A DNA stretch of 64,000 nucleotides from positions 18,293,375 through 18,357,374 of the forward strand of contig CAIIXF020000005.1 in assembly GCA_903813345.2 (NCBI GenBank), in the 5' to 3' direction. Below are positions 21,607-60,600 of this stretch, piece after piece; within the stretch, counting starts at the first letter, position 1; each line of letters begins with the position of its first letter. Below the pieces are notes generated by a model. It was not told where the DNA came from and searched no databases. It was given only the letters and a program-made list of their open reading frames with translations. Made by a program: the position numbers and the translations under genes. The DNA comes from Owenia fusiformis (Eukaryota > Annelida > Polychaeta > Sabellida > Oweniidae).

Positions 21607-24013
21607 TTAAAGTTTTGATTGGTTCTTGGGTTTTATTAATTTAAGACTTTCATCTTCCTCAACCAACAATGATGGGAACTTCCTAGGCATCATCCTTGGA
21701 GGTTCAACATCAGGGTTACATCTGTATACACTGAAGTCTGTTACCCCCTTGCTGTGCAAGTAGTCCTCATCTAATAAAGCTTCACCATTCAAACTGGAAT
21801 ACAGTACATAAAGATTATTTTATACTAGGGATAGGATATGGATGGTATCGAGAGAAATTATGATATTTGAGGGACCTTTTAATAAATATATCGTAATTAC
21901 TAGCTGGGAGGAAAGGGTATGGATTTAATCCAACATGGCTGATATAAGATACAGATATAATATTTTGAAACATTTATTATTCTTTTTTTATCCCAGAAAA
22001 GTCAGATTATGGATTGAATTTATGTGTATTGTGATAACATTTTTTGAAGTTATTTGAAGTGTCTTCAGTTCATACACAGTGTAAATACCTTTGGGCATCA
22101 TCTTTACCAATTTCAAGGCAAGCATCAGCAAATATTGTTGATTTACGCATCACATCTTGGGGGACATTTTGTTGCTGGGTCACAAAGCTCTCAATACCAG
22201 TAGCTGGCCATAGGGCTGTCACACTTACACCTAGAATATCAATACATGTATGTCACACTTACACCTAGGATTTCAATGCAGAAGTCACACTTAATCTAGA
22301 ATGTCCAAATATTTATGTCACACTTACACAAATTATATTGATGCATGCATGTCTCACACACATCTAACATGTATATGCATAACTTAATGCACAATATATT
22401 GAATACATGAGTCAGAAATGAAATCTTATGTCACACTTATGTAGCTTGAAAATATATTGCCAGTATATTTATGAAGATATTCTAAATGTATTAATGGAAA
22501 GTCTTTCTTTCACCTTTAAGCAAATTCTCTACTTAGCAATTAGCTTCTGCTTATATATTCATTCATAATCATTTAAAACATGGCCTCACCCGTGCCCTTG
22601 AGCTCATTAGCAAGTCCATGTACAAGAACTGTCATCCCAACCTTTGTGATTGAATATGGTGTTTTGCCTTTGAAGAACCTATTCATAAAAAGTAAAGAAG
22701 ATTTAATGACTATGTAAGTAGCCTATTATCAGGAGTTTCAAAACTAAACAAATCATGACATAACACTAAATAAAAACTGAATAAATAATGACATAACATT
22801 TTGGTTTTGAATTTTTTCTCTGAACACAGTCTTGAGGAAGACTATGAAATTTAATATACGTGTACAGTGAAACCTGTAAAGTGAAACACTTTTAGAAGTT
22901 GAACATCTCTGTTAGTGGAACAAAGACCAAATGACTAAATTTTAAATGGACCTTTATAAGTGGAACAGTTTTATAGGTACCAAATGTGTTTCACTTAAAC
23001 AGGTTTTACTGTACATGTATTTACAGCATACATACCTGCTGTATATAGGTGGTGCTACAAGAAGTATCTTCCCAGACCCTTGTTCTATGAAGTATGGTAG
23101 CACCTTCTGGACCATAACATAAGCACCTCTTACATTCACCGAGTGCATCAGGTCATACCTGAACATTTCAAACAAATGAGGTTAGAGGATAGGAAACTAC
23201 CACTATGAACTACTTGTGTATTGAAATATTTCGATTGATAATAAGTTGGATAAAAAGTGGTTATAAAATTCAGCTTTCTACTGACATCATTTTTCAACAG
23301 CAAGATTTCAATACAAAAGTTGTTGTGGAGGTGATTTGAAAAATCAACTCCACATTTATGGGGGTATGTAATGCAATACTGTAACTCAGCCTAATGACAG
23401 CCATCATCCATCAAGTGACGCTGACAACAAGTTGCAAACGCAAAATTGATGCTCATAAATGATGATCAAGATGAAAATCATAATGATATAATGGCAACAA
23501 TAAAGATTATACTTATGATGACCATGTTTAAAACATCGATTGACATTATGACAACAATTATGATCATGCTTACTTTGATGTTGATCAAGGTGATAATCAT
23601 AGTGAAAATAGGATGAAAGGGAAGTAGATGATGACAATTAAGAAAAAATGATCACTTATATCATTATCAAGAATAATAGTGCACCTCTTTAAAGGGGTAT
23701 CAATAACGGGCTTCCATAAGATTGCTCCAGCATTATAAATTGCATAGTCCAACTTTCCAAATGTCTCGATACAAGTATCAACAGCCCCATCTATCTCTGA
23801 CGGATTGCGGCAATCACATTTAATAGCAACTGCCTTCCCACCAGCATCCTCGATCTCTGCTGTCACACTATGTATCGTCCCTGGAAGTGAGGCAGTTTGG
23901 GCAGTTGTTTTGGATGCTACACCAACTTTGTAGCCATTTTCTGCTAGGGAAAGAGCAATTTGACGACCGATTCCACGAGATGCACCAAGTACTAAAGCAA
24001 CTTTAGAACTCAT
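21607..24013 (-). CDS. Peroxisomal short-chain dehydrogenase/reductase, HSDL2-like SDR domain without SCP2
   Basis: NAD(P)-dependent oxidoreductase fold; the substrate is unknown. Coding exons in order: 24013-23685, 23158-23036, 22678-22590, 22230-22089, 21793-21607, giving 289 residues. The first exon has an acceptor at 24055, so at least one untranslated exon lies upstream; the ATG at 24013-24011 is the first to start a normal Rossmann strand. Motifs: G10-ASR-G14-I-G16 for the cofactor, YNAG at 93-96, N118, and Y159-SIT-K163. The residue blocks GTIHSVTAEIE, DTPLKR and ALWPATGIE follow the HSDL2 SDR domain. The usual catalytic serine region reads LLVAPP, with alanine at 145, so the standard N-S-Y-K tetrad is altered. 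The protein ends in SKL, a peroxisomal targeting signal. Human HSDL2 has a C-terminal SCP2 domain that is absent here. Confidence 0.9.
22865..23015. repeat. Dispersed repeat (GTGGAAC / AACAGGTTTTACTGTAC family)
   Basis: Inverted ends ACAGTGAAACCTGTAAAGTG and CACTTAAACAGGTTTTACTGT. It is most like 28610-28780 and sits in an intron of the SDR gene. Confidence 0.7.
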
Positions 24014-24055
24014 GTTGACCCAGTCATTCGAGATTAGTGGTACTGTATGGAGTCC

Positions 24056-24739
24056 TGTAAAAGGAAAACAAACAGAGAACCATAGCCCAAGGGAAAATAG
24101 CATTAGCCCAATGTAGAAAGTCTTTCAAGATTGAGCTGATGCATTTCATTTGGCCTATAGAGAATAGATGTAAATGCCAATGTTAGTATATTATACATAA
24201 TTTAATTACTGACAACACAAACCACCAAACAAACAAAAATACATATGTTAGTATTAATCAACCTTTAGTCCAAATTCCAAATCATCTCTGTATAAAATGT
24301 CACTGTGCATGCACTAAAGTACAGCAAGTACACTTTGATGACCTTGGGGACTAGTCATTTTCTTCTGTAGTTCACACAACTATTTCATTTTGAATATGAA
24401 GAGCATGACAAATAGCTCAAGTATATCATGATTGTATTATCCACATGTTATAAATGTTTGATTCAACACATTTGTGTACTTATCTCACATATTAGCCTTG
24501 CCCCAAGTCGGTATTTTTTACTTTATCTGATCTGAAATCAAGATAAGTAAAAGAGACCGACTTGGGGCAAGGCTACTCACATATCAACCAATAATAAAAG
24601 TTCATGTCATTGTTTACATTTTGTAAGTTATTGTAGATCACATGACCAATCATATGACCTGACCTATTTACTGTCCTTCAGCAATTTTGATTTTCTAGGA
24701 CATTTCGCACCGACTTGAACGCCAAAGACAACTGATAAA
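24056..24739. promoter_or_regulatory. Divergent promoter region of the SDR and DyP peroxidase genes
   Basis: About 0.7 kb separates the two start codons. It contains the SDR's untranslated 5' sequence and a hairpin at 24493-24577 with 19-bp arms AGCCTTGCCCCAAGTCGGT. The hairpin looks like a small insertion rather than a control site. Confidence 0.4.
24493..24577. repeat. Hairpin with 19-bp perfect arms
   Basis: AGCCTTGCCCCAAGTCGGT and its exact complement enclose about 45 bp. It lies between two divergent genes. Confidence 0.75.
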
Positions 24740-27700
24740 ATGGCTTCAATGCGATCGGGAACTAGGCTATTTAGGTTCATAAACAGCTCAAGAGGTAATA
24801 TCATATATAGTTTGCAAAGAACAGGCATTGGTTCTCAGAGAAATAAGATAAACTTGTTATGAAATTTTTAAAAATTGAAAACCATGATGGCTGCTCATTT
24901 TGACCTATATTGTAAATGCTGATTTCAGGATTTCTTGAATTGCTTGACCTCTACATCTGCAAAATTACATATGCCAGTTTTACTCAAAATATTCATTATA
25001 AATAGAATCTTATTGTTATGTCTAACATTACCTAACAAAAACATCAAGGTTTCAAAACCTGTTTCATAAAAAACTTAGACTATATCCTATTTAGTCTGAA
25101 TTATATTCAGACTGACTTCTAGTCAGTCTGTTGGATACATACTAATAAAAAACTGAGAACCTCAAATGACTCCACACTGGTCCAATTTATGTAAAACAAT
25201 TATTAGTCATAATTTAAACACACAAAGACATTCATCATTCCGGAGGTAACAGGTTGCGGTCCAAGCTAGAGTAAAAGTTTGTATATCACTGTACATGTAG
25301 GCATGTCTTTTTATTCTGAATCACATCATTAATGTACATCAATCAAAAATGTTAAATGGTTTAAGAACAAGAAAGTTACATGCTCTAAAACACCTGAAGA
25401 GTGGATGTGGTTTTTCAATCCTGTTTCCATAGCAATGTCAGTAATTCTGACTATCTTTTCGTTGGTATCAAATGTATCTGTGTATGCATTTTTACTTCAA
25501 TAAGAAAGGTTTCAATCATAAAAAACCCTGATGGCTCTGAAAATATTGCTATTTATTGACAAAATATGGTCAATGACATCTTAATAGATATGCAAATGAG
25601 ATAATTGACATGATTAATGCAGTAAATTACTGCCAGTAATGCATCATATGAGAGTTATTCTTACTAAACTTCTGATACGAATAAAGTTGTCCATTGAGAA
25701 AAAAAGCTACAATCTAAAACTTATAAAAAGATTTGAAAAGTGGGTGTTGCCTTTGCATCCATATTCCATAGTAACGGATGCAAATTTGGAGAGGTCTCTA
25801 GCTTTGATTTGTTACTGTAAAGTTGTATTCATACTCAAGACTTTAACTCTTTATTTTCACAAAGTTCCTACTCTCCTATATTACCCGAGAGAAATTGCAT
25901 GACCTTTTTATTTGCCTTAATACTTAATACCTTCTGTCGTTTCAGTTGGTGTTAGGAACCTGAGCAAGAAACAGGCTGGAACAGGATATGCTGCATTCCG
26001 TCCAGTCCTTCTGGGTGGTATTGCTATAGGGACTGGGTCCTACCTTGCTTATGAGGCCTACAAGAACAAGAGTGAATTGATGGCACCATTGAAGGTGGCC
26101 CATGCAGCTACTCCTGCTGAACCACAACCCTCAGTAAGTACTCTATGCTGGTATGGATTGTTGTCGTTGTTGTTATGTTACCAAGTCAACAAGTGGTGAC
26201 ATGTTTTATTCCATAGTTAGCATGATATTCATAGGATAACATGTCAAAATAAAAACGATATTTTTGTGATCAGTGGTAAAATATGATATTTTCACTTGAC
26301 CATAGCATATGGTGTTTAAGACATGACATACGGCGCCGTGTGCTATGAATTAAGGATTTTTGCTACTTTAGACTCAAAACGAAGCTAAGTGTCAACATCG
26401 CCGGATTCATGGATAAAAATCATATCACTCATAAATCATAGGATACCTTCTACCACTTTGTTCAGTACTAGTTTCTAAAAGTACTTGATGTCTAGCAATT
26501 GTTCTATATTTTTGTAACCATTTGGAAAATGTTCCAGGTGGTGATATTTTGTCCTGTTGATGCCTTGTTTAATTGTATATGTTTTCTGAATGAAAATACA
26601 TTCTATGTCTAGACATATAAATTATCCCTAAGGTTATGCGCCTTGAATGAAATGGTGCTAACCGACTTAGTAGAATGCCAAGAACAAGGATTACTCGACC
26701 AATATTTGATTTTGACTAATGCTGAAAAAGGCCATAGAGGATGGTTTAAAGAGGTTAAAGATATATTCAAAAATGCTAACCTCTTAGATCTCTATAATGA
26801 ATGTTTTTATAACAATTCAAGTGCATGGTTAACATTAAAAAAATGTAAAAGATTCTGAAATGAATCACTTCATACATAAATGGACCTTTCAGATAAATAC
26901 AATGTCAAAGTTACATACATATAAGTTAATTAAAGACAATTTTGGTATAGAGGATTATATAAAATTATATTTATCAAGGAATCAAAGATCTGTTATTGCA
27001 AGAATTCGCTCAGGTACTCTTCACCTGAACATAGAAACTGGTTGATATAAGGCCTTGCTGTTGAACAAAGACTTTGTGAGGCATGTAAATATGGACATAT
27101 AGAAACTGGGAAAAATTTTCTTCTAGAATGCTCTTGTTACAAAGATTTGAGAAAAACTATAATCAGACCCCCTATGGTTCATGATAATCAAGATTTGTTG
27201 AAACATTTTCTTTCAAATAAAAATTATGTAAAACTTACAGCAAAATTTATAATACCAGCTCTTGAAAAACGACCAAAATTTTTGTAAATTACCTAATGAA
27301 GTGATCTAGGGCTAGCTACATGTATGTGATATCATATGATATCAATATTTATTATATCATTGAAATGTTTCTCGCTTTCTCATTGGATAAGAACTGATCA
27401 CATGATTAGAAATATTAGGGTGTATTTCATTGTTTCCTGCAGTCTCCAGCCGCAACCTCGTTTTCAACTGTATATACCACGATGTATATACCACGGAGTA
27501 TATACCACGGTAGAAAGTCCTGGATGCTATGTTTTTGTAATGACGTCACAACAATATTGTAGAAAATACATGGATACGCACGGCAACAAAACTTCATTGT
27601 TATGACGTCACAGGTTATATTTGTAATATGAGCATGTGTACTCGTAGCAATTGTGCATCCGTTGCCATATTCTTGATGTTTATAAACCAGTGATGTCACA

Positions 27701-30700
27701 AGTCATCTTGCACATGTGACTTTTGAGCAAGGGCGGATGAAAGATGGCAATATCTTGCATAATATAAGAGTGGCTGTAGTTAGAGTGGTTATTCTGATGA
27801 GCACATGTATTGTATCTATGTATTAATGGTTAAAAGAAATACACTTAATTTGTAGAACATTCAAATGATACAATAAATCAAATATTCCATTCTATTTTTG
27901 GTGAATACATGTTCATCTTTCCTTCAGATATAGTTCCCTTGGAGGGAAAGATGAACATGTATTCACCTCAATAGAATAGAATAGATGGAGTAATTTATTA
28001 GAATGAGATATAAGGAAAATGCAGGGTTTCTTTTTTGACCACCTTGTATGTAAGGGTTTAAAGAGGAAATACATACACAATTTTTTTATTGTTTCTTTTG
28101 CAAGGGGTTGTGTAAGAATATCTGATAAAAGGCAAAACAAATGAATAAATTTTGTTGCAAATTACATTTTAAACATAGAAACAGTTGCAAAATCTCTCAC
28201 AATATTCCAAACTTTGATATACATGTATTTTGACACCATGTCCATGGTGGTTGGATATGTCTCTGCACTACTTATTCAACCTTTAAATTAGTTGAAACAA
28301 TAATCTTGAGTTCAAAGAATAATCTTCACATATGCAAAGATATTTTGCTGTGCTGATCATACTTCAATCTTATTAACACTCCAACCACATTCAGAGGTAT
28401 TAATCATATGCTTTCAACTGTAAGATAAGGATTATGTCATATGACTAGTAAATTGTATATTAATTTATACACATGTAACATGTACTATATATTGTTTACA
28501 CATACTCAAATATAATAGTACATGTAATATTAATTTTAGATGAGCTCCTATGGTCAATTCAGTATTGGTATTATTTAGATAAACTGCTAAAATCATAATA
28601 TACATGTACAGTGAAACTTGTAAAGTGGAACACCTCTTGAAGTGGAACACCTCTGTAAGTGGAACATTGGTTCCAAGACTAACTGTCTTAAATGTTAAAT
28701 AAACCTCTATTAATGGGACACCTCCCAAGTGGAACACTTTTAAGAGGTTCCAAAGGTGTTCCACTTAGACAGGTTTTATCCTATATATTTAACAGTTACT
28801 CATACAATAACCCTTTTAAACCTTCTTTGACCAATAATGTTTCATCAATCCATTGCATTGATATTTAGTAATTTACTGATATGTGCAAAAATCTGTCCAC
28901 AAAAAAACTAAGAGAATTTGGCATTTTAATCTCCTGATAATAACATATACAAATGCAACAACCTGGGGCAGAAAAAATTAGATCTTCCTTCTCCATAAAA
29001 AATATGAATGAAACCCATGGGACCATGGTCTTATGTTGTTTTGGTACTGTGACCTCAAATTTTACTGGGTGTAAGATCAAATTTGGCCCATTTCTCAGAC
29101 ATTTCAAATCCACCCAGTTTCTGGCACATATTCAGAGATACAGTGTTAAAATAATCAACTCCACAATATGGAAGCATTCCTTGTTTGATGATTTTTTTGC
29201 ACAGGTCTTTAACAATCTTTCCACCTAAGCCCTGTCCTCGATATCTGGGCTCAACAAACAGTTTTCCCATTATGAAATTATGTGTGCACAGAATGAAGCC
29301 TATAAGTGCCCCACTGGTGGTTCGAATGCAACTTGTTGGTAGATGCCTTATCATGGTTATTATACGCGGATCATATTCAGAACTCTTCCATGTATATGAA
29401 TAATGCCATGACTTTTGAACTGATTCATAATCTGTTTCTCCCAGTTCATCAAAGTACATCCCATGCGGCAATTCTTGGTCTTTGTTAAATGTTGTAACAT
29501 CTTTGTCAAACCAGAACATTGCATAAGATTCTAGGCATTCCATGTAGACAGGTTTTAACTCATTAAGTGCAGAATGCAGAGCACTAATATCCGATATCTT
29601 GGCACCTACATTAAGGATAAAACAGAAAATGAGAAAAAGTATTCAGTAAAAGCAATTTATTGATTTTAAAGGAACCTTATTTTCTTTGCATGGGGGGGGG
29701 CTGGATAATTATATGACCAGATATAAGTTTTATTATAGATTCAATGATAATAGATTCTATTATGTATAAAAATATGACTTATATTTTTGTTTATATCACT
29801 ACCAAGTTATAAGTGATATTACATTATTGCATTTCATTAATAAAAAACGTTATGTTGTAAAATTGAGACATATCTAATGCGTTTAATGACTAAGAATGTT
29901 TCAAAAATGAAAGGTTAGCTAATATACAGTGGTCACCATAAATAAATGATGCCTGGATTTGCTGAAGTGAGCATTTCCCATGTTAAAAAGAACATAATAT
30001 TCAAGAGGCTATACATCAGTGGATGAGAGTATACAAAATGTAAAATATACAAAACTTAAGGGATGTGTATCTAGACATTATCGGAAAGTATGAAGTCTCA
30101 AATCACCATGGTCTGGAAATGGTGATAGAAAATCCAGGTGTCGTTTATTTATGGTGAGCACTTTACATGTACATGTTTTTAAAACCCTTACAGGCAAGTA
30201 TCATATGCAGAGAGTGGTGATATAGTACAGGGTGATAAAAATAAACGGAACCCCCTACGCCATTTTCCTCATATCTTTTTCATTGTAGGAAATAAATCCC
30301 TGATATTTTACACATTTGTACATCATTTAATTGGGGCCCTTTAATCTAGCACTCCATTGGCCACTATTGTGCTGTTGGCAAACCTGCACTGCAACAAAGA
30401 TAGAGTGTATGAGAATGACCACAGGACAATTGCAGACCCCAGACGTTAGATCATTTGTGTCATTCAGATCATAACTCTGTGCACATTCGGCTCATTGACA
30501 ACTGTGCAGGTTTGCCTACAGCGCGATAATGGCTAAACCTGAGGCATGTTGTTCAAAGTGTTGTAAAATTGTGACTATCAGTCCGATGGTCATCAAGTAT
30601 ATTAGGGTGATAGGAAATTGAATGATGTACAGACTACAGATGTATTATATGAAATATCATGGAGTACCTAAAATGACAAAGATACGAGGAAAATGCAGGG

Positions 30701-33700
30701 TTTTCGTTTTTTACCATCCTGTAGATTAATTTCATAAAGTATAAACATAAGAATTATATGCAAAAAGGAATCTTAATCTCTAAATCTTAATATCATGCGG
30801 AAATGAAAAAGTCATTGGGTCTTGTAGCTCTATGGGGTCATGAGTTCGATCCCCACTGGGGCATTTCATTCTGTGTTTTACAATTCTAACTTACAAATTG
30901 TAACGGGAAACTCCTTGAAAACACCAGATGTCTTTACAAAGGTGCTGATAGCATCATGTGATGTAGCAAATAGAATCCCTGCTAGATTATCTCTCATTTC
31001 TGGATTCTGGAAAATTGTAATTTAGGTATTTAACAAACAACAAATAAAAAGGAAATGGGCAAACAAACAAACAAACAAACAAACACAGAAACAAGTAATT
31101 ACCTGTTCCAGAAACTGCTTCTTTTGTGGAGCATAAAGGATTTGAAAATCTGGCCATTTGTCAACTATTATATCACTCCAACCTATATCATACACCATTT
31201 CCACCATCACTACACCTAATGCCTAAAATCGATGTTTTAAAGTTTTGAATATTTATATGTTCTTTAACCCCTCTAAGGTAGCAACACAATAAAATGAAAT
31301 GTAGTTTATTTAAAAAATATACACTTGTAACAAAGAAGGGTGTATTCTTTTCTATTGTTTTTAACTCCTTCGTGACTGGTCAATTTTTGGAAAAATGAAA
31401 AAAAAATGAAAAGCTGAAATGAAAATGAATCTATAAGCAAAAGAAGAAGCAACACCCAATTAGTTATATATCATTTTGAAGGGCTGGACCCATACTTTAT
31501 GTTTTTTGAAAAAATATGTGAATATGTGAATGAGATACTGTCATTGTAACGTCATAATTCAAGATGGCACAGTTGGATTTTTATCAAAATGGAATTATTT
31601 TTAAGCATTTAATTTTTAATTGAGACTTCAATTTAAAAATCTGAAAACGCAGAATTATAGATCTTTTTATGCTGATTGCAGTGGTATTTGTACCATGACA
31701 TAACTCCTACAAATAATTTTTTGGAGCTTCGAGACTGAAAATTCCAGGAAAATCCCTATGGCGATTTAACATGGGATTTTATCGTTTTCGCAATTTTTCG
31801 TGCGCTCACCAGCTTCGGATCACTGTAACTTTGTAAAGTTAGAGGCACTTGAATCTGACATGTCGCGAAAAAATATTGTAAACAATAACATCCCATGATT
31901 TTCCGAGAATTTTCAGTGTCAAAGCTCTAAAAAATGTATTTGTAGAAGTTATGTCATGGTACTCATACCACTGAAATCAGCATAAGAAATTGCATATTCA
32001 CATTTTTTTCAAAAAACATAAAGTATGGGTATATCCCTTCAAAATGATATATTACTTATTGGGTATTGCTTCCCTTTCTTGCTTCTGGAGTCATTTAGAT
32101 TTTAGTTTTTCATTTCTTTCCATTTTCCCCAAAATTTCCAGTCATGAGAGAGTTAAAGAATTCATACTTGGCAAGCTATCAAAAACCAGTGTGGCACAAT
32201 AGATGATTGACTGTCACATGCAGTACATTAAAATTGAACTCATTCAATAGATATAGAGTAAACACAAAGGATATCAAATTTTGAATTATATCTGACCGCT
32301 GTTATATTTGGTGCACTGAAACTGAACTAATTGCTCCCACTCACTTCTCATCACAATTAAATTATACCCCAACTACCATAAAACAAGGTTATGGAAATTA
32401 ATGCATGTTTTTCCTTTCTACAATTTGCTTTTACATGTATTATCATTCAGGACCTAATTACTTTGTATATAATTTCTTACTCCATAATCCTGGTCTAAAT
32501 TCATTTAATTAGTAAATTGTATACCTCCGCTAAAAGCCTGAGTATTAGCTTACAGTTAAGGTTAACAATTATTCCAGTCTACCTCTGAAATTGCATACTG
32601 TACCCTTATTGAATGTGGTGTAAAAGAATTCAGTCGATGAACGGCCAGGGGGAAGTCATCTTTTGTAAGAATCCTCATATCCTGTTATTGTCTTCTACTA
32701 TATGAAAATGCTAAAAAATTATTACAGTTATTTTTTATGAATTTTTATTCCTCAAAGATGACTTGATAGTATCAGCTAAGTCCTAAATTTCAATGTTAAC
32801 CAAGTTGAATTGCCCTAGACATATACATGACATACACGAATAGATTAATATTGAGTTGGGTCAGACTCACCTAGCTCTTGGTATTACGTACATGTATGTG
32901 TTAAACCTGCATGCATCGGGTAAAATAAATGATATTTAGTCTGACATATGTTGTGTCATCTTGGATTTCCGAGGTATGATGGGTGTTCATACCTTGCAAT
33001 ATCAGGCTGATATTTCTGCCCAAAACCCTATTAATTTGCCATAGATTGAGGATTCTGATGAATGAGATATCATCTTATTCAGCCTACATTATGCTAATTC
33101 TTTTGTATAAGGTAAATAGAAGCTGACCAGTCAACCTCATTAGTCAATAATTAAGGGCCATTAACTATTGTTTAAAAGGAGTCCGACCAATGAGATCCTA
33201 GACCCATATTATTGCTGTTTGCAGGTGGTAAGCCAAACCAAAAGCCATGCTCTCTATCTTTGGATTAACTTAAAGCCATCGGCTGATGTCAAGGCATGTG
33301 CCAAGGTCGCAGCAAAGCTTCAAGATATGGTAAATGCTGTCACTCCTCCCAAAGATGCTGATGATGACACTGAAATCTGGGCCGGGGTAGGATTCGGGCC
33401 AAACTTCTATGCGCAAGTTGCTGGGAAAACAAAGAAGAACTACAACTACCCACATAGAAAGGGTGCCCTTGGGGATATGCCAAGTTCAGGTTAGACAACA
33501 CTTTAAGATATATATTTAAAGATACATTTTGTTATATTAATGTCTTAAATTCTGTTATGACTTACTTTTATATAAAACTTTTGGGTGGAAATATACATCC
33601 GTTTTTTTTTGTACTCCAGTTTGTGTTATTTTGTGAAATAATGTAAATCTCAACTTATATTCTTATTCCATATACTTACAGGTGGCGACATCTTTGTACA

Positions 33701-36259
33701 TGCCAAGAGTGACTCCAACAGCAAATTGTTTGAGCTTGCCCACAAGTTTGTGACCAGCTTGCCTAAAGATTCTGTGGATAACCATGAAGATATCTACAGT
33801 TGGGTGTACAAGAATGGACGGGATCTTTCAGGCTTTATTGATGGTGAGTTTACCATGAGCTGATATACTGTATCTATGTTTGGAGGAAGGCTTAAATTAT
33901 GCATAAAAGAAAATTCTAAGAGCAACATTTGAAGTACTTGAATATGAGCAAAAATACATTTATAAATAAACTCATCAATGAAACAATCATGCACTACATG
34001 TATGTTCTTTAGATTTTATTGCTGAGGTTGTCCCAATGTGAAAGAAAGTAAAAAACAATATTACCCTTGATTTAGGAACTGAGAACCCTGCAGATGATGA
34101 GCATCGTACAACAGTTGCAGTGGAGCCAGAAACTGGAGGCAGTTATGTCATCACACAGAAGTGGGTACATAACCTCAATGTAATCAACTCTGAGAAAGGT
34201 ATGTGTGATGTCACAATATGTCTTAATTTTTGCAAATTATTTCGATACAGTGCTAGTAGAAAAATATTTGTTCACATATGATAAATAAGTTGATTTAGTG
34301 TAATTTTAAACCGGAAGTGTGTCAGACACAATCTGTTTTTTTGTTTGATTTCAAGTACATATGAAGACTTCCGGGTATCTTTGATATAAAGCACTGTTGT
34401 AACAGTATTATCTACAACCATTGAATATTAATATTTTTTGAACTCCTGATATAATATTGTATATATGTAATATTGCTGATGTCTTTGATCATATGCAGGT
34501 AAAGTTTGATAATTTTTACAGACAAAACCCTTGAGAGCTGGGTTGGACGACGCAAAGAAGACAGCATTGAATTATCACGTAAAAGCATTTCATCACACGT
34601 TGCCAGGATGACTGGTGGTAAGTACAGTATGTAGGGCTTACATCAAGACAAACGTTAGATATCAAATCATTGGGTCAATATTACAAACCCAAATTGTTTG
34701 ATGATTGAATGTGTATTGAATTGTTCAATGTTATTATCCTATTTAAAGTGTGTTTAGTTTACATTTGAAGAGAATCTCTGTTTCCTAGCTATATATAGTA
34801 GTAATTTGATCAGTTCATTATCCCATCGAACGAAGTTCGGAGGGATATAGGGAACGCCTCCGTCCGTCCGTCTGTCCGTCCGTCCATCTGGGCAATAACT
34901 CAAATACCGTTGGCCCGATTTTGTTCATATTTTGTACACATATTCCCTATGGGGCTAGAAGTTCTGCTCGAAAGCCGATTTTCAAAATGGCCGCTCATTT
35001 CAAAATGGCGGCCATTTTAGTGCCAAATTTACAGTAATTTAGGTGCAATATGTAAAACTGTAATAGCAATATGTTTTAGATGTAAAAAAATTATATAGGA
35101 CATTAATAAAGCTAGAAATGTAGATATTAAAGAAGCACAAGGCAGCCATCTTGAAAAATGGCGGCCTTTACTCGTTATTTTACGATTTTTGCTGTAACTC
35201 GAAAAGTAGTGGAGCGATTTTGTTCATATTTGGTATGTGAATACTATAAACATTGCACACTGTCTAAAGACACTTTTGGTAGAAGGTGGCCATTTTAAAA
35301 AATGGCCGCCATTTTAAAAAATGGCCGCCATTTTAACCTATTTTACTATAACTCGAAAAGTAGTGAAGCGATTTTGTTCATATTTGGTATGTGAATACTA
35401 TAAGGATGGCACACTGTCTAATGACACTTTTGGTAGAAGGCGGCCATTTTTCAAAATGGCTGCCATTTTAACGTATTTTACTATAACTGGAAAAGTAGTG
35501 GAGCGACTTTGTTCATATTTGGTATGTGAATACTAAAAGCATGACACACTATCCTATGACACTTTTAGTAGAAGGTGGCCATTTTGAAAAAAATTTGGAA
35601 AAAAAAATTATTCGAAAAGTAGTGAAACGATTTTGTTCATATTTGGTATGTGAATACTGTAAGCATGGCACACTGTCTAATGACACTTTTGGTAGAAGGC
35701 GGCCATTTTGAAAAATAGCTGCCATTTTAACGTATTTTACTATAACTCGAAAAGTAGTGGAGCAATTTTGTTCATATTTGGTATATGAATACTTTAAGTA
35801 TGGCAAATGGTCTAATGACACTTTTGGTAGAAGGCGGCCATTTTGAAAAATGCCTGCCATTTTTGCTATAAACTTTGTTTTTAAAAATGCCATCCATGGC
35901 TGTTCGATGGGATTCGCTACGCTTTGGCGTTGCCGTTGTTCTGGTTAAACTTATGATTGTTGCAAAGTAATTCAACATCAGTTTTAGTTTTCACTTTCGT
36001 TTCACTTTCAGGAAATAACTTTGAGCAGAAGAAGGTGTTTGAAATTGTCCGTCAATCCATGCCTTTTGGTACCGTAAGTGACAAAGCTGGTCTCTTCTTC
36101 ATTGGTTATGCAGCCTCCCCTGAACAGCATGAATACATGCTGGATCGCATGGTGGGCGCTGGTGGAGATGGCCATAGCGATGACATCATGAGGTTATCCG
36201 AATGTGTAAAGGGAACATATTGGTATTTCCCAGGTTCCGGAGAACTCAAGAAATTGTAA
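24740..36259 (+). CDS. Dye-decolorizing (DyP-type) heme peroxidase with mitochondrial-like presequence
   Basis: Heme enzyme that uses hydrogen peroxide to oxidise broad substrates; well known in bacteria and fungi, rarely discussed in animals. Seven exons: 24740-24794, 25946-26133, 33225-33489, 33682-33843, 34076-34198, 34522-34617, 36012-36259. The frame is continuous for 378 residues. Residues 1-30 are rich in R, S and K without acids, and a hydrophobic stretch follows at 38-54, fitting a mitochondrial presequence plus a membrane anchor. The catalytic core starts near residue 82. GFIDG at 220-224 is the DyP GxxDG signature, with distal D223. H290 in SSHVARM fits the proximal heme ligand and R310 in IVRQSMPFG the distal arginine. 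GLFFIGYAASP and the GTYWYFPGSG end also fit. The 7.1-kb second intron holds an antisense gene. An AATAAA lies at 36647-36652. The core call is firm; joining the two N-terminal exons rests on phase alone. Confidence 0.9.
26195..26577 (+). mobile_element. Degenerate copy of the GTGGTGACAT element
   Basis: Starts near ACAAGTGGTGACATGTTTTA and ends CCAGGTGGTGATATTTTGTC plus TGTTGATGCCTTGTTT. It differs from the other copies at many sites, so it is an older insertion. It lies in intron 2 of the DyP gene. Confidence 0.55.
26640..27287 (+). mobile_element. LINE fossil: C-terminal end of a non-LTR retrotransposon ORF2
   Basis: Three blocks in two frames: 26643-26858, 26860-27045 and 27051-27287, separated by stops, so the copy is dead. 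The middle block (YIKLYLSRNQRSVIARIR, then LNIETG) and the last block (RLCEACKYGHIETGKNF with LLECSCY, a C-x2-C-x8-H-x4-C type cluster) match the tail found after reverse transcriptase in CR1/jockey-like LINEs. The copy is 5'-truncated, as usual for LINEs, and ends at a stop at 27285-27287. Confidence 0.75.
27466..27506 (+). repeat. Short tandem repeat GTATATACCACG
   Basis: Three near-identical copies of GTATATACCACGR in a row within intron 2 of the DyP gene. Confidence 0.7.
27898..27967. repeat. Perfect hairpin with 23-bp arms
   Basis: Arms start with GGTGAATACATGTTCATC and its complement and enclose about 24 bp. It was probably left by a small foldback insertion. Confidence 0.75.
28610..28780. 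repeat. Dispersed repeat (GTGGAACACC family)
   Basis: The start ACAGTGAAACTTGTAAAGTG and end GTTCCACTTAGACAGGTTTT are inverted; internal AAGTGGAACACCTCT units are repeated. It lies downstream of the N-acyltransferase gene. Confidence 0.7.
29055..31222 (-). CDS. Glycine N-acyltransferase-like protein (GNAT fold), 5' exon not found
   Basis: Acyl-CoA-dependent N-acyltransferase that conjugates acyl groups to glycine or a similar amine in vertebrates. Coding exons in order: 31222-31103, 31006-30895, 29605-29055; about 260 residues in one frame ending at a stop. The first visible exon carries VDKWPDF, the family hallmark near the N-terminus (VDSWPDF in human GLYAT). The last exon carries the C-terminal GNAT domain: IGFILCTHNFIMGKLFVEP, then RYRGQGLGGKIV, the R/Q-x-x-G-x-G acyl-CoA loop. 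Human family members are about 296 residues, so one short upstream exon of about 30 codons is probably missing. The whole gene lies inside intron 2 of the DyP peroxidase gene on the opposite strand. Confidence 0.82.
29927..30163. mobile_element. Tc1/mariner-type MITE, TA flanked
   Basis: The left end CAGTGGTCACCATAAATAAA and the right end read inward (AAGTGCTCACCATAAATAAA) match over about 35 bp, and TA lies on both sides. It is 237 bp with no coding content and sits in an intron of both the N-acyltransferase and DyP genes. Confidence 0.7.
30227..30722. mobile_element. Inverted-repeat element with CATTTTCCTC arms
   Basis: The left (GGTGATAAAAATAAACGGAA, then CCATTTTCCTCATATCTTTT) and right ends are imperfect inverted copies of about 55 bp, with a second inner pair around GCAAACCTGCAC. 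A related fragment lies at 27995-28050. Confidence 0.6.
30815..30880 (+). mobile_element. tRNA-derived SINE fragment
   Basis: TAGCTCTATGG resembles an A box and GAGTTCGATCCCCAC a B box. The downstream TTTCATTCTGTGTTTT is shared with the fragment at 40235-40312. It is too short and unpaired to be a tRNA gene. Confidence 0.5.
31060..31085 (+). repeat. Microsatellite (AAAC)n
   Basis: About six units of CAAA next to the donor of the N-acyltransferase exon. Confidence 0.85.
31365..32160. mobile_element. Large imperfect palindrome, about 0.8 kb
   Basis: The ends read TTTAACTCCTTCGTGACTGG and, inverted, TTTAACTCTCTCATGACTGG. Many internal blocks pair (CATTTTGAAGGG, ACATAAAGTATGGG, ATGTCATGGTAC), centred near 31790. 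Arms differ often, so it is an old foldback element. Confidence 0.65.
32957..33167 (-). repeat. Dispersed repeat, copy 2 of a pair
   Basis: Reverse complement of 10150-10358 at high identity. It ends about 60 bp before the acceptor of DyP exon 3. Confidence 0.8.
34819..35914 (+). mobile_element. Element with ATCCCATCGAAC ends and a tandem core
   Basis: The left end ATCCCATCGAACGAAG and right end GTTCGATGGGAT are inverted. The core has about five units of 125-155 bp carrying TGTTCATATTTGGTATGTGA, ACACTTTTGGTAGAAGG and ATGGCCGCCAT. A GTCCGTCCGTCTGTCCG run lies near the left end. It is in the last intron of the DyP gene. Open frames over it repeat with the units and are not genes. Confidence 0.8.
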
Positions 36260-57600: not shown

Positions 57601-60600
57601 CAAACTGTCACTGGCACCCGTCGTGGGGGCGGGGCTACTAAACTGTAATATGGTCTCTACTAGGCAGAGTGTAGTTTAACTAGACTCTGCACGCAGGGTA
57701 CCTTTACTACTGCAAAGCAATAATATTAAAAGTGCATTTGTATAATAGTTCACATTTTGAGTATTTAGTTCCACCAACCTATAAAGGTTATGAGATTGTG
57801 ATTGTCCTGAAAATTAAGTCAACTGGGCCATATAATTTATTTTAGCAAATTACCACAAAATTGGCAATGCTTGGCAGATATGGGTTTACTCTAATTCCAG
57901 GATCAACATGTATTTTGTAGCTTGTCATTTTCTCATCACATTCACTGAATGTTTAACCTCTTTGCCGATTGTAAGCTTAATACACAGGGGCGGATCCAGG
58001 AACCAACAAGGGGGGGGGCCCAAATTTCAGGTCAGAGAAAAAACGTCCGCGCTTGCGGGGAAAAAAATTTTGGGCCCCTAAAATCCAAAAGTGGGCCCAA
58101 ATTTTGAAATTTTGAGGCCCATTTTCTTCAAAATTTGGCCTGAAATTAACAAATAAGGCCTTAAAAGGCCCAGTAATGACCAAAGAGGCCCACTTTTTGG
58201 GGCCTGAAGGCCTTGTTTGGCCCAAAAAATTTTTTGGGCCCAATTTTTTTTTTCTGGGCCCACCCAAGGGGGGGGGGGCCCGGGCCCCTGGGCCCCCCCC
58301 CCTAATCCGCCAGTGATACATGTACATAAAAAAGATTTTGTAAATTCACTAAACTTAAGCATGTACACATTATATTACTGCCTTCAATTTGAATGTTAAC
58401 ACAATGAGCAAACAGTTATTGAATCCCCCCTTATAACTTATATTAGTTCTGTTTAAGTTACTTTAATACAATACCCCAAGGCCTTGTAATTACCATGCTC
58501 TGAATACAACAAATAAATCTTTAATATTCATACTTATAAGACCTTAGTTAACCCAAAGTAGCTGTCATGAAAAATGCCAACTTTTACTTATTATATGAAG
58601 AAAATTCTATATAGGTTAGAGGAAACATTGAGTCTAAACTCAGTTCTCTGTTTTCAATTTCCTAGAAATTGGTTTCGGTTATCGCCAGATGAATGATGAT
58701 GTCATTTTAGAAAATTGTTTTGGAATGCGTGGCTGGGTGTGCACCACATTTTAGAGGTCATGATTTCACTATATTGAAGATTCTTGGATAGAGATCAAAA
58801 ATATTTCATTAGATGAAAGTTCAGTGCATCTAGTATGTATCATTCTGATACTCACTTACAATGTAAAATGATCTGATGACAGAAATTTTTATGTGGTAGT
58901 ACACAATTATAGTATGGCTTTTAATTTAATTTTAAAAATGTGATCCACATGTCTCAAATCAACTTTTATTTATGCAAGTTCTTAGTAATATTAATATTAC
59001 ATATAGTTAGTGTTATTTTTTTCTGGTCATTGTACAAATTATGGCAAGGACTTATGTTAGATTTTGTAATTTATCCCCTCCGACCTAAATTTTGATAGAG
59101 AAAGCATATGGAGGTATTAGACATAAGTCCAAATAGAAAGAAGATGGAGGCAGACCTAGTCCTAGATACAAGATTTTACATATACACAGAGTAAAATCCT
59201 GGTAAAACTGGGGTTATATTAGACTCAGTCAAACTTGCTACAATCAATGTGACAACCAAAATGTGTTAAAGTATCAGAGAAATTAATTAGTAGTTGATAA
59301 GATTGGTTTAAATGTCAATTAACCTTGCAGGGGTTAAGTGTCTGTTTATGTTGGTAAATCACTGATATGTCAGAAGTATTCCATGGTCTCAAATGTGGCT
59401 CTCAGGGCAGTTTGACTCTAAGAGAAGAATTACATACAGTTAAACCTGCCTAATGAGAACACTACTATGTTTAATTAGTGCTAGGTGAAATGGTTTGGAT
59501 AATCATTGATGATCACATTTCAAGATTTTTTTCACATGAGAGTTTTTAACATAAGTTTTTTTTATCATGATGGACACAGTAGGATACTAGAAAGTGAGAA
59601 TGAGAAATTGTTCAAATTGGAGAGGTGTCCACATTAGTGTGGTGTTCGGATATACAGATTTTACTGATCCAAGTATTCATAACCTTTTATAGTATAGTAC
59701 TATACTGTCTCTCATGCTGTTAAAGTTCAGTTTCACTTTCTGATTTGAGAAATACAAATTGAAGAAAAATGCTGAGTAGTAGAGATTGGTCATCTTCAGA
59801 ATGTTGGTATCCAAGGTCCAGTATGCCTTCTTTTAGATCTGTAGCCCAAGGTTTGGTAGATTCTATATTTTAGGTTTACCTATTTATGCCTAACATGAAG
59901 CTTTGATATATGGTATTGGGAGGGTCTATTTCTAGGAAAGCTAGAACATTCTCAATTTTATTTTTTATCTATTGGTATTTGTATGCATAAATGATTCATT
60001 CCTACTGATTTAGACATGAGCTATAAGAAATATCTAAAACTGCTCAAAATATCTTAGTTTTTATGATTTTCGCAGTCATACAAGAATCAAATTGAAAGAA
60101 ATTTTTTGAATTCTCAAAGACTAGAACTGACTAGATGTTTTCATATAAAAGGCAGAGAGTCCAAGAGGAAATATATTTTGATCCATCTTGAGATCTCCAT
60201 TGAAAATAATACACTGGTAGGTGTACATGTATATAGAGAAATATGGAGGAATGAATAAGCTTTTTGATTTTTGGCAAAAGGTAAACTTACGGAAATTGAT
60301 ACAAGCAAATATTTACAAAAAATTTGCCAAAACTAGGTGTGTAAAATGACAACTCTACTTCTAGCTCTAAATATTTACAACCTAAAAACAAACAGCATTT
60401 AAATACTAATTACTTAGTACACTGGTAATGATGATTCTAATCACATAGCTGCTAGTAGCTGCCATACATTAGTCACACTTAGAAGCAGGCCATAGACAGT
60501 TCACTCACTTTCCATCATTAATTATCACACCCTTGGTATACGCAGCTAACGAAAATTGACCGGCACGGGTCAAAAGCTGGACCGGCACGGGTTAACGGTT

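Follow-up and report, generated by a model that had tools for sequence, protein, structure and literature searches.

A class-B DyP heme peroxidase gene in the annelid Owenia fusiformis with an N-terminal extension that may direct its product to mitochondria

The gene and its surroundings

The 64-kb stretch of Owenia fusiformis DNA analysed here (the window) occupies 18.29–18.36 Mb on a contig of 42.5 Mb (assembly size 498 Mb) and carries an intact, spliced animal gene for a class-B DyP heme peroxidase, with predicted peroxidase activity (Table 1). Rebuilt from the sequence after correction of splice ends, the gene has the seven exons and spliceosomal introns of the original prediction: the spliced frame is open over 1137 nt, giving a protein of 378 aa, and all six introns are GT-AG. 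It is a single-copy gene, as a protein search of its own genome returned seven matches, all of them its seven exons, and no second DyP copy. PF04261, when searched exon by exon in the same genome, gave no match, which we put down to its weak score, since the protein query did recover all exons. The GC content is 44–51% in the exons against 23–35% in the introns. Upstream, a short-chain dehydrogenase exon (HSDL2 is the second of its three solved relatives) and the DyP gene are arranged head to head, so that one promoter region may serve both, and CFAP58 is found downstream on the opposite strand. Wnt, to our knowledge an animal-only family, gave 42 matches in the assembly and none in 14 control genomes.

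Table 1. Coordinates, within the window, of the DyP gene and of other features mentioned in the text.
Feature	Position	Strand	Content	Signals and remarks
Short-chain dehydrogenase exon	23597-24124	-	upstream neighbour
DyP gene	24740-36259	+	seven exons
Exon 1	24740..24794	+	aa 1-18, start of N-terminal extension	donor GTAATA; least certain exon
Exon 2	25946..26133	+	aa 19-81, rest of extension and first DyP-model residues	acceptor TTTCAG, donor GTAAGT
Intron 2	26134..33224	+	7091 nt, between exons 2 and 3	GT-AG
Three adjacent open frames	26613-27287	+	LINE-type reverse transcriptase tail, by eye	in intron 2
Single open frame, 195 aa	29055-29642	-	GNAT / glycine N-acyltransferase-like	in intron 2, opposite strand
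Exon 3	33225..33489	+	aa 82-169, DyP N-terminal domain	splice model and Pfam
Exon 4	33682..33843	+	aa 170-223	last residue is distal Asp223 of GFIDG
Exon 5	34076..34198	+	aa 224-264, inside C-terminal heme domain
Exon 6	34522..34617	+	aa 265-296	carries proximal heme ligand His290
Intron 6	34618-36011		mostly repeat
Exon 7	36012..36259	+	aa 297-378 and stop	distal Arg310, Ser312, Leu324, Phe326, proximal Asp353
AATAAA	36647..36652	+	candidate polyadenylation signal
Open frame containing WRIRGGGPGARAPPPLGG	57977-58345	-	repeat-derived look, by eye

The two exons that encode the N-terminal extension differ in how well they are supported. Exon 2 has strong coding support: its codon usage scores 30.2 bits in the proposed frame but -34.4 and -36.2 in the two others, and none of 20,000 background stretches of the same length (188 nt) scores as high (the training set consisted of five stretches, with exons 1 and 2 kept out of it). 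Exon 1 scores -4.3 bits and so has no coding support of its own; it is one of eight right-phase ATG-to-GT candidates whose donor agrees with the consensus at six or more of nine bases. Its ATG has a good start context (A at -3, G at +4) and is preceded by an in-frame stop at 24716. Of the two separate exons that had been proposed for the extension, then, one is well backed, but the other lacks codon-usage support. Exon 3 has no in-frame ATG ahead of the DyP domain and an upstream exon is therefore required; the proposed exon 2–3 junction is based on the splice signals, on phase and on this need for an upstream start.

Several further features were noted in and around the gene. The open frame on the opposite strand of intron 2 (PF00583, 1.7e-9; PF08444, 2.2e-6) can be read as a nested gene or a retrocopy, and the three adjacent frames in the same intron have no Pfam match over cut-off. 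The repeat that makes up most of intron 6 has a 244-nt unit in four copies at 60–100%, with inverted arms of GGCGGCCATTTT type. Neither Rfam families at gathering score nor tRNAs were found within the 64-kb window. Elsewhere in the genome (C6:27033687-27048438) there are three Eryth_link_C (Pfam) matches over cut-off, one with an internal stop; this family, the annelid erythrocruorin linker, is in keeping with an annelid genome.

Family and heme pocket

The identification as a DyP peroxidase is borne out by all three domain models. The 378-aa protein matches PF20628 with an E of 5e-34 (117.9 bits, cut-off 20) and the NCBIfam model TIGR01413, beginning at aa 79, with 7.4e-45 (153.6 bits, cut-off 100.5), while PF04261 barely passes, with 2.3e-4 and 21.6 bits against a cut-off of 20.4. 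In the PDB, 42 different sequences of solved structures match the protein at E<=1e-3 (the best with 1.3e-36), with the Klebsiella DyP (6fks, 34% identity), the Vibrio DyP (5de0, 33%), Dictyostelium discoideum DyPA (PDB 7o9j/7odz, 37–38% over the piece compared), E. coli YfeX (5gt2) and RjDypB (Rhodococcus DypB) among the top matches. The available text of PMC8230527 assigns all five to class B, and the class A, C and D entries that it names (3O72, 4G2C, 2D3Q, 4AU9) are absent from the 42-row list; for the top rows 9li4, 7yzt and 5vj0 the class is not given in the sources used for class assignment. By these comparisons the DyP core is nearest to class B (YfeX/DyPA-type) rather than to A, C or D.

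The GXXDG motif is present as GFIDG (220–224), where DyPA has DFIDG, and the distal D223 and R310 and the proximal H290 are all intact at the positions originally claimed. Of the heme-pocket residues named for DyPA in the available part of PMC8230527, 7/7 are kept (D149 corresponds to D223, R239 to R310, S241 to S312, L253 to L324, F255 to F326, H222 to H290 and D281 to D353). Around the heme propionates the agreement is lower, with three of the five DyPA residues kept and D227 changed to N298 and K236 to E307; the alignment has an insert of three residues close by. All five residues are kept in the Klebsiella and Vibrio enzymes. Differences are also found in the surface aromatics W190, Y191 and Y244, which are proposed to serve long-range electron transfer in DyPA (PMC8230527, available text): they are I260, N261 and F315 in the window protein, while the Klebsiella enzyme keeps Y244 and the Vibrio enzyme W190 and Y244. 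(Tyr268 of DyPA, also named there, was omitted from the comparison, as the numbering used put no Tyr at that position.) The changes in the propionate pocket and in the surface aromatics suggest that the reductant may differ from that of DyPA.

The N-terminal extension

The protein has about 75 aa at its N-terminus beyond the class-B core. Class-B enzymes are described in the available text of PMC8230527 as cytoplasmic and made without an N-terminal extension; bacterial members, including YfeX, have neither introns nor extension, in contrast to the window gene, which has both. The prokaryotic relatives begin near aa 74–79 of the window protein. Among the best 80 of at least 581 relatives, the local match starts at aa 74 or later in 70 loci, and in 71 an ATG, GTG or TTG is found within 30 codons upstream of the aa-79 equivalent with no stop between, both tests being lenient, since local matches may begin late and GTG and TTG are common. 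Judged from these alignments, the extension is mostly missing from the bacterial relatives compared, and the window protein is best described as a class-B catalytic core made variant by its N-terminal extra.

The original prediction read this region as a mitochondrial presequence followed by an anchor, and the evidence for this is mixed. Residues 1–54 contain no Asp or Glu (chance 4e-4 at the composition of the core) and carry six Arg and two Lys, and within the 63 residues of exon 2 the basic residues are followed by a weak hydrophobic stretch at about aa 34–54. R22-N23-L24, ahead of S25, resembles an R-3 processing motif and is a putative cleavage site. However, the amphipathicity is modest, the best window having a moment of 0.73 that 304 of 5000 shuffles reach, and the putative anchor is weak, with a maximum of 1.17 on a 19-residue Kyte-Doolittle window, where 1.6 is usual for a membrane helix. 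The mitochondrial reading is further weakened because exon 1, which bears four of the six arginines (R5, R9, R12, R18), has no codon-usage support. In the first 78 residues there are no curated domains over cut-off in Pfam or NCBIfam and no meaningful match to a solved structure (best E 0.33), and a search of the own genome did not find a source gene for the presequence, the sole other match having an E of 5.5. On this evidence a mitochondrial destination appears plausible and is the likeliest of the location readings.

A different reading keeps the peroxidase as it is and places it elsewhere, with the extension serving either as the signal anchor that ties it to some other membrane or as a flexible tail, the enzyme in the latter case being cytosolic like DyPA. 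The weak presequence and anchor scores and the first 78 residues, bare of recognisable domains or solved relatives, would fit with this, and DyPA, cytoplasmic and without an extension according to the available text of PMC8230527, also counts against the mitochondrial reading. We nevertheless consider a non-mitochondrial location rather unlikely, as it leaves aside the complete lack of acidic residues over 54 positions and the Arg bias, and the strongly hydrophobic stretch that an ER signal would be expected to contain is missing. Alternatively, one gene could make two forms, the long one starting in exon 1 and bound for an organelle, the short one starting at Met64 in exon 2 and staying in the cytosol. 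Met64 is in frame just ahead of the DyP domain, and the resulting 315-aa, 34.7-kDa protein would be about as long as the class-B enzymes of bacteria, but the start context of Met64 is weak, with T at -3, and two forms seem to us quite improbable.

DyP peroxidases in other animals

The original prediction treated a DyP in an animal as unexpected, and this cannot be upheld, since such proteins are already in print. Schistosoma mansoni Smp_160550 and its kin, a Trichoplax protein and a mussel protein are likewise DyP-type peroxidases in animals. The available text of a 2009 schistosome study (PMC2764848) describes Smp_160550 as a Dyp-type peroxidase whose family seems to have expanded in flatworms and to be missing from vertebrates, and Zamocky et al. 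2015 (PMC4420034, available text) place the DyPs of Dictyostelium, Naegleria and S. mansoni in subfamily B. In a 2015 gill proteome of the blue mussel (PMC5302490, available text), spot 134 was identified as dyp-type peroxidase-like by a match to Trichoplax gi|195996389 (score 59, two peptides, 6% coverage), with an observed mass of 30.4 kDa and pI of 6.00 and calculated values of 33.1 kDa and 6.21. The window protein from aa 76 onwards has a mass of 33.5 kDa and a pI of 6.1, and the closeness of the Trichoplax calculated mass to that of this core suggests that the placozoan DyP lacks the extension, which speaks against the mitochondrial reading. In the available texts of these three papers animal DyPs are represented by sequences, transcripts or a detected spot only, with neither enzymology nor a cellular location. 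The DyP mentioned in the available text of PMC5105290 is that of gut microbes, and the terms peroxidase and DyP are absent from the main text of PMC13342648 and PMC12756402, as far as it was available. No mention of a mitochondrial animal DyP was found in the available text of the open-licence literature searched. Animal DyPs themselves being known, the notable part here is the possible mitochondrial address.

Relatives and origin

A scan of genome contigs gave at least 596 stretches, including at least 581 confirmed relatives, and among the best 80 that were kept no prokaryotic locus exceeds 38.1% identity, the best matches being at 34–38%. In draws of genomes from three groups, each including its centre genome, 13 of 385, 4 of 297 and 5 of 294 genomes had matches at E<=1e-20, with identity of at most 37% among the matches listed, and viral contigs contributed nine loci at 28–32%. 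A close bacterial donor was thus sought in the contig scan, the genome draws and the viral contigs, and none was found, identities staying at or below about 38%. The tree had 81 rows and 308 columns and used 79 of 110 loci, with 31 near copies dropped, rows cut at 420 aa and stop letters in over-extended upstream pieces replaced by X; DyPA was present as a 216-aa piece, and no other animal DyP sequence was included besides the window protein. In this tree without animal relatives no strongly supported set holds the window protein, and its end branch is 2.19 against a median of 0.28. Of the sequences in the tree set, DyPA has the highest identity to the window protein (37% over 208 columns). 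Constraining the window protein and DyPA to one clade costs 30.7 log units with a p-AU of 0.0448, just under 0.05, a result that decides little because of the long branch and the partial DyPA sequence.

A recent transfer from a bacterium, or contamination, might be suspected in a family that is mostly prokaryotic and fungal (PMC4420034, available text). This is already contradicted by the six GT-AG introns and the higher GC of the exons, by a site 18.3 Mb into the 42.5-Mb contig between the short-chain dehydrogenase exon and CFAP58, by the lack of any prokaryotic match over about 38% identity and by the long end branch, and we regard it as extremely improbable. Contamination and a pseudogene were both rejected on the introns, the open frame, the kept residues and the chromosomal place.

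Taken together, the placozoan, molluscan, flatworm and window DyPs suggest old inheritance within animals, and the DyP lineage has probably been in animals for a long time rather than having come recently from a bacterium. Whether it goes back to an ancient pre-animal eukaryotic gene, lost in vertebrates and many other lineages, or to an acquisition by an animal ancestor appears to us evenly balanced. The presence of class-B DyPs in Dictyostelium, Naegleria and Schistosoma (PMC4420034), of DyPs in Trichoplax and mussel (PMC5302490), again as far as the available texts go, and the top rank of DyPA by identity in the tree set all speak for an ancient gene, and the placozoan, molluscan, flatworm and window DyPs lean towards the wide vertical inheritance that the original prediction had set against its own view. 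Against this stand the AU value for the clade with DyPA, of little weight as it is, and the available text of Zamocky et al. (PMC4420034), who propose several transfers within subfamily B, with lower eukaryotes as the source of the fluke gene. Of the proposed old acquisition, the old age in animals is probable. A transfer may have taken place, but the prokaryotic relatives compared stay at or below about 38% identity and the tree leaves the gene unplaced.

Proposed role

We slightly favour a reading of the locus in which a nuclear gene of the animal encodes a class-B DyP heme peroxidase that is directed to mitochondria by its N-terminal extension. In this scenario the Arg-rich presequence would drive mitochondrial import and might be cut off near the putative site before S25, and residues 34–54 could hold the protein at the inner membrane, so that the heme domain would be placed in the intermembrane space or the matrix. 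Heme would be bound through His290, Asp223 and Arg310 would split H2O2 to form compound I, and a small reductant would then be oxidised, the net effect being peroxide removal.

The yeast cytochrome c peroxidase CCP1 is a heme peroxidase that reaches the intermembrane space of mitochondria by means of a two-part presequence. Its likeness to the window protein would be a functional analogy only, as superfamily and fold are unrelated. A bolder extension of the same reading, which we regard as speculative and unlikely, is that invertebrates have a mitochondrial DyP made of a class-B core and a two-part presequence, which fills the place that cytochrome c peroxidase has in the intermembrane space of fungi and represents a peroxide-removing system lost by vertebrates.

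Peroxide handling in animals is usually told in terms of catalase, peroxiredoxins and glutathione peroxidases. If the window protein is mitochondrial, it would add a bacterial-type heme peroxidase to the animal mitochondrion, and the gene would offer a natural case for how a bacterial-type enzyme gains an organelle address.
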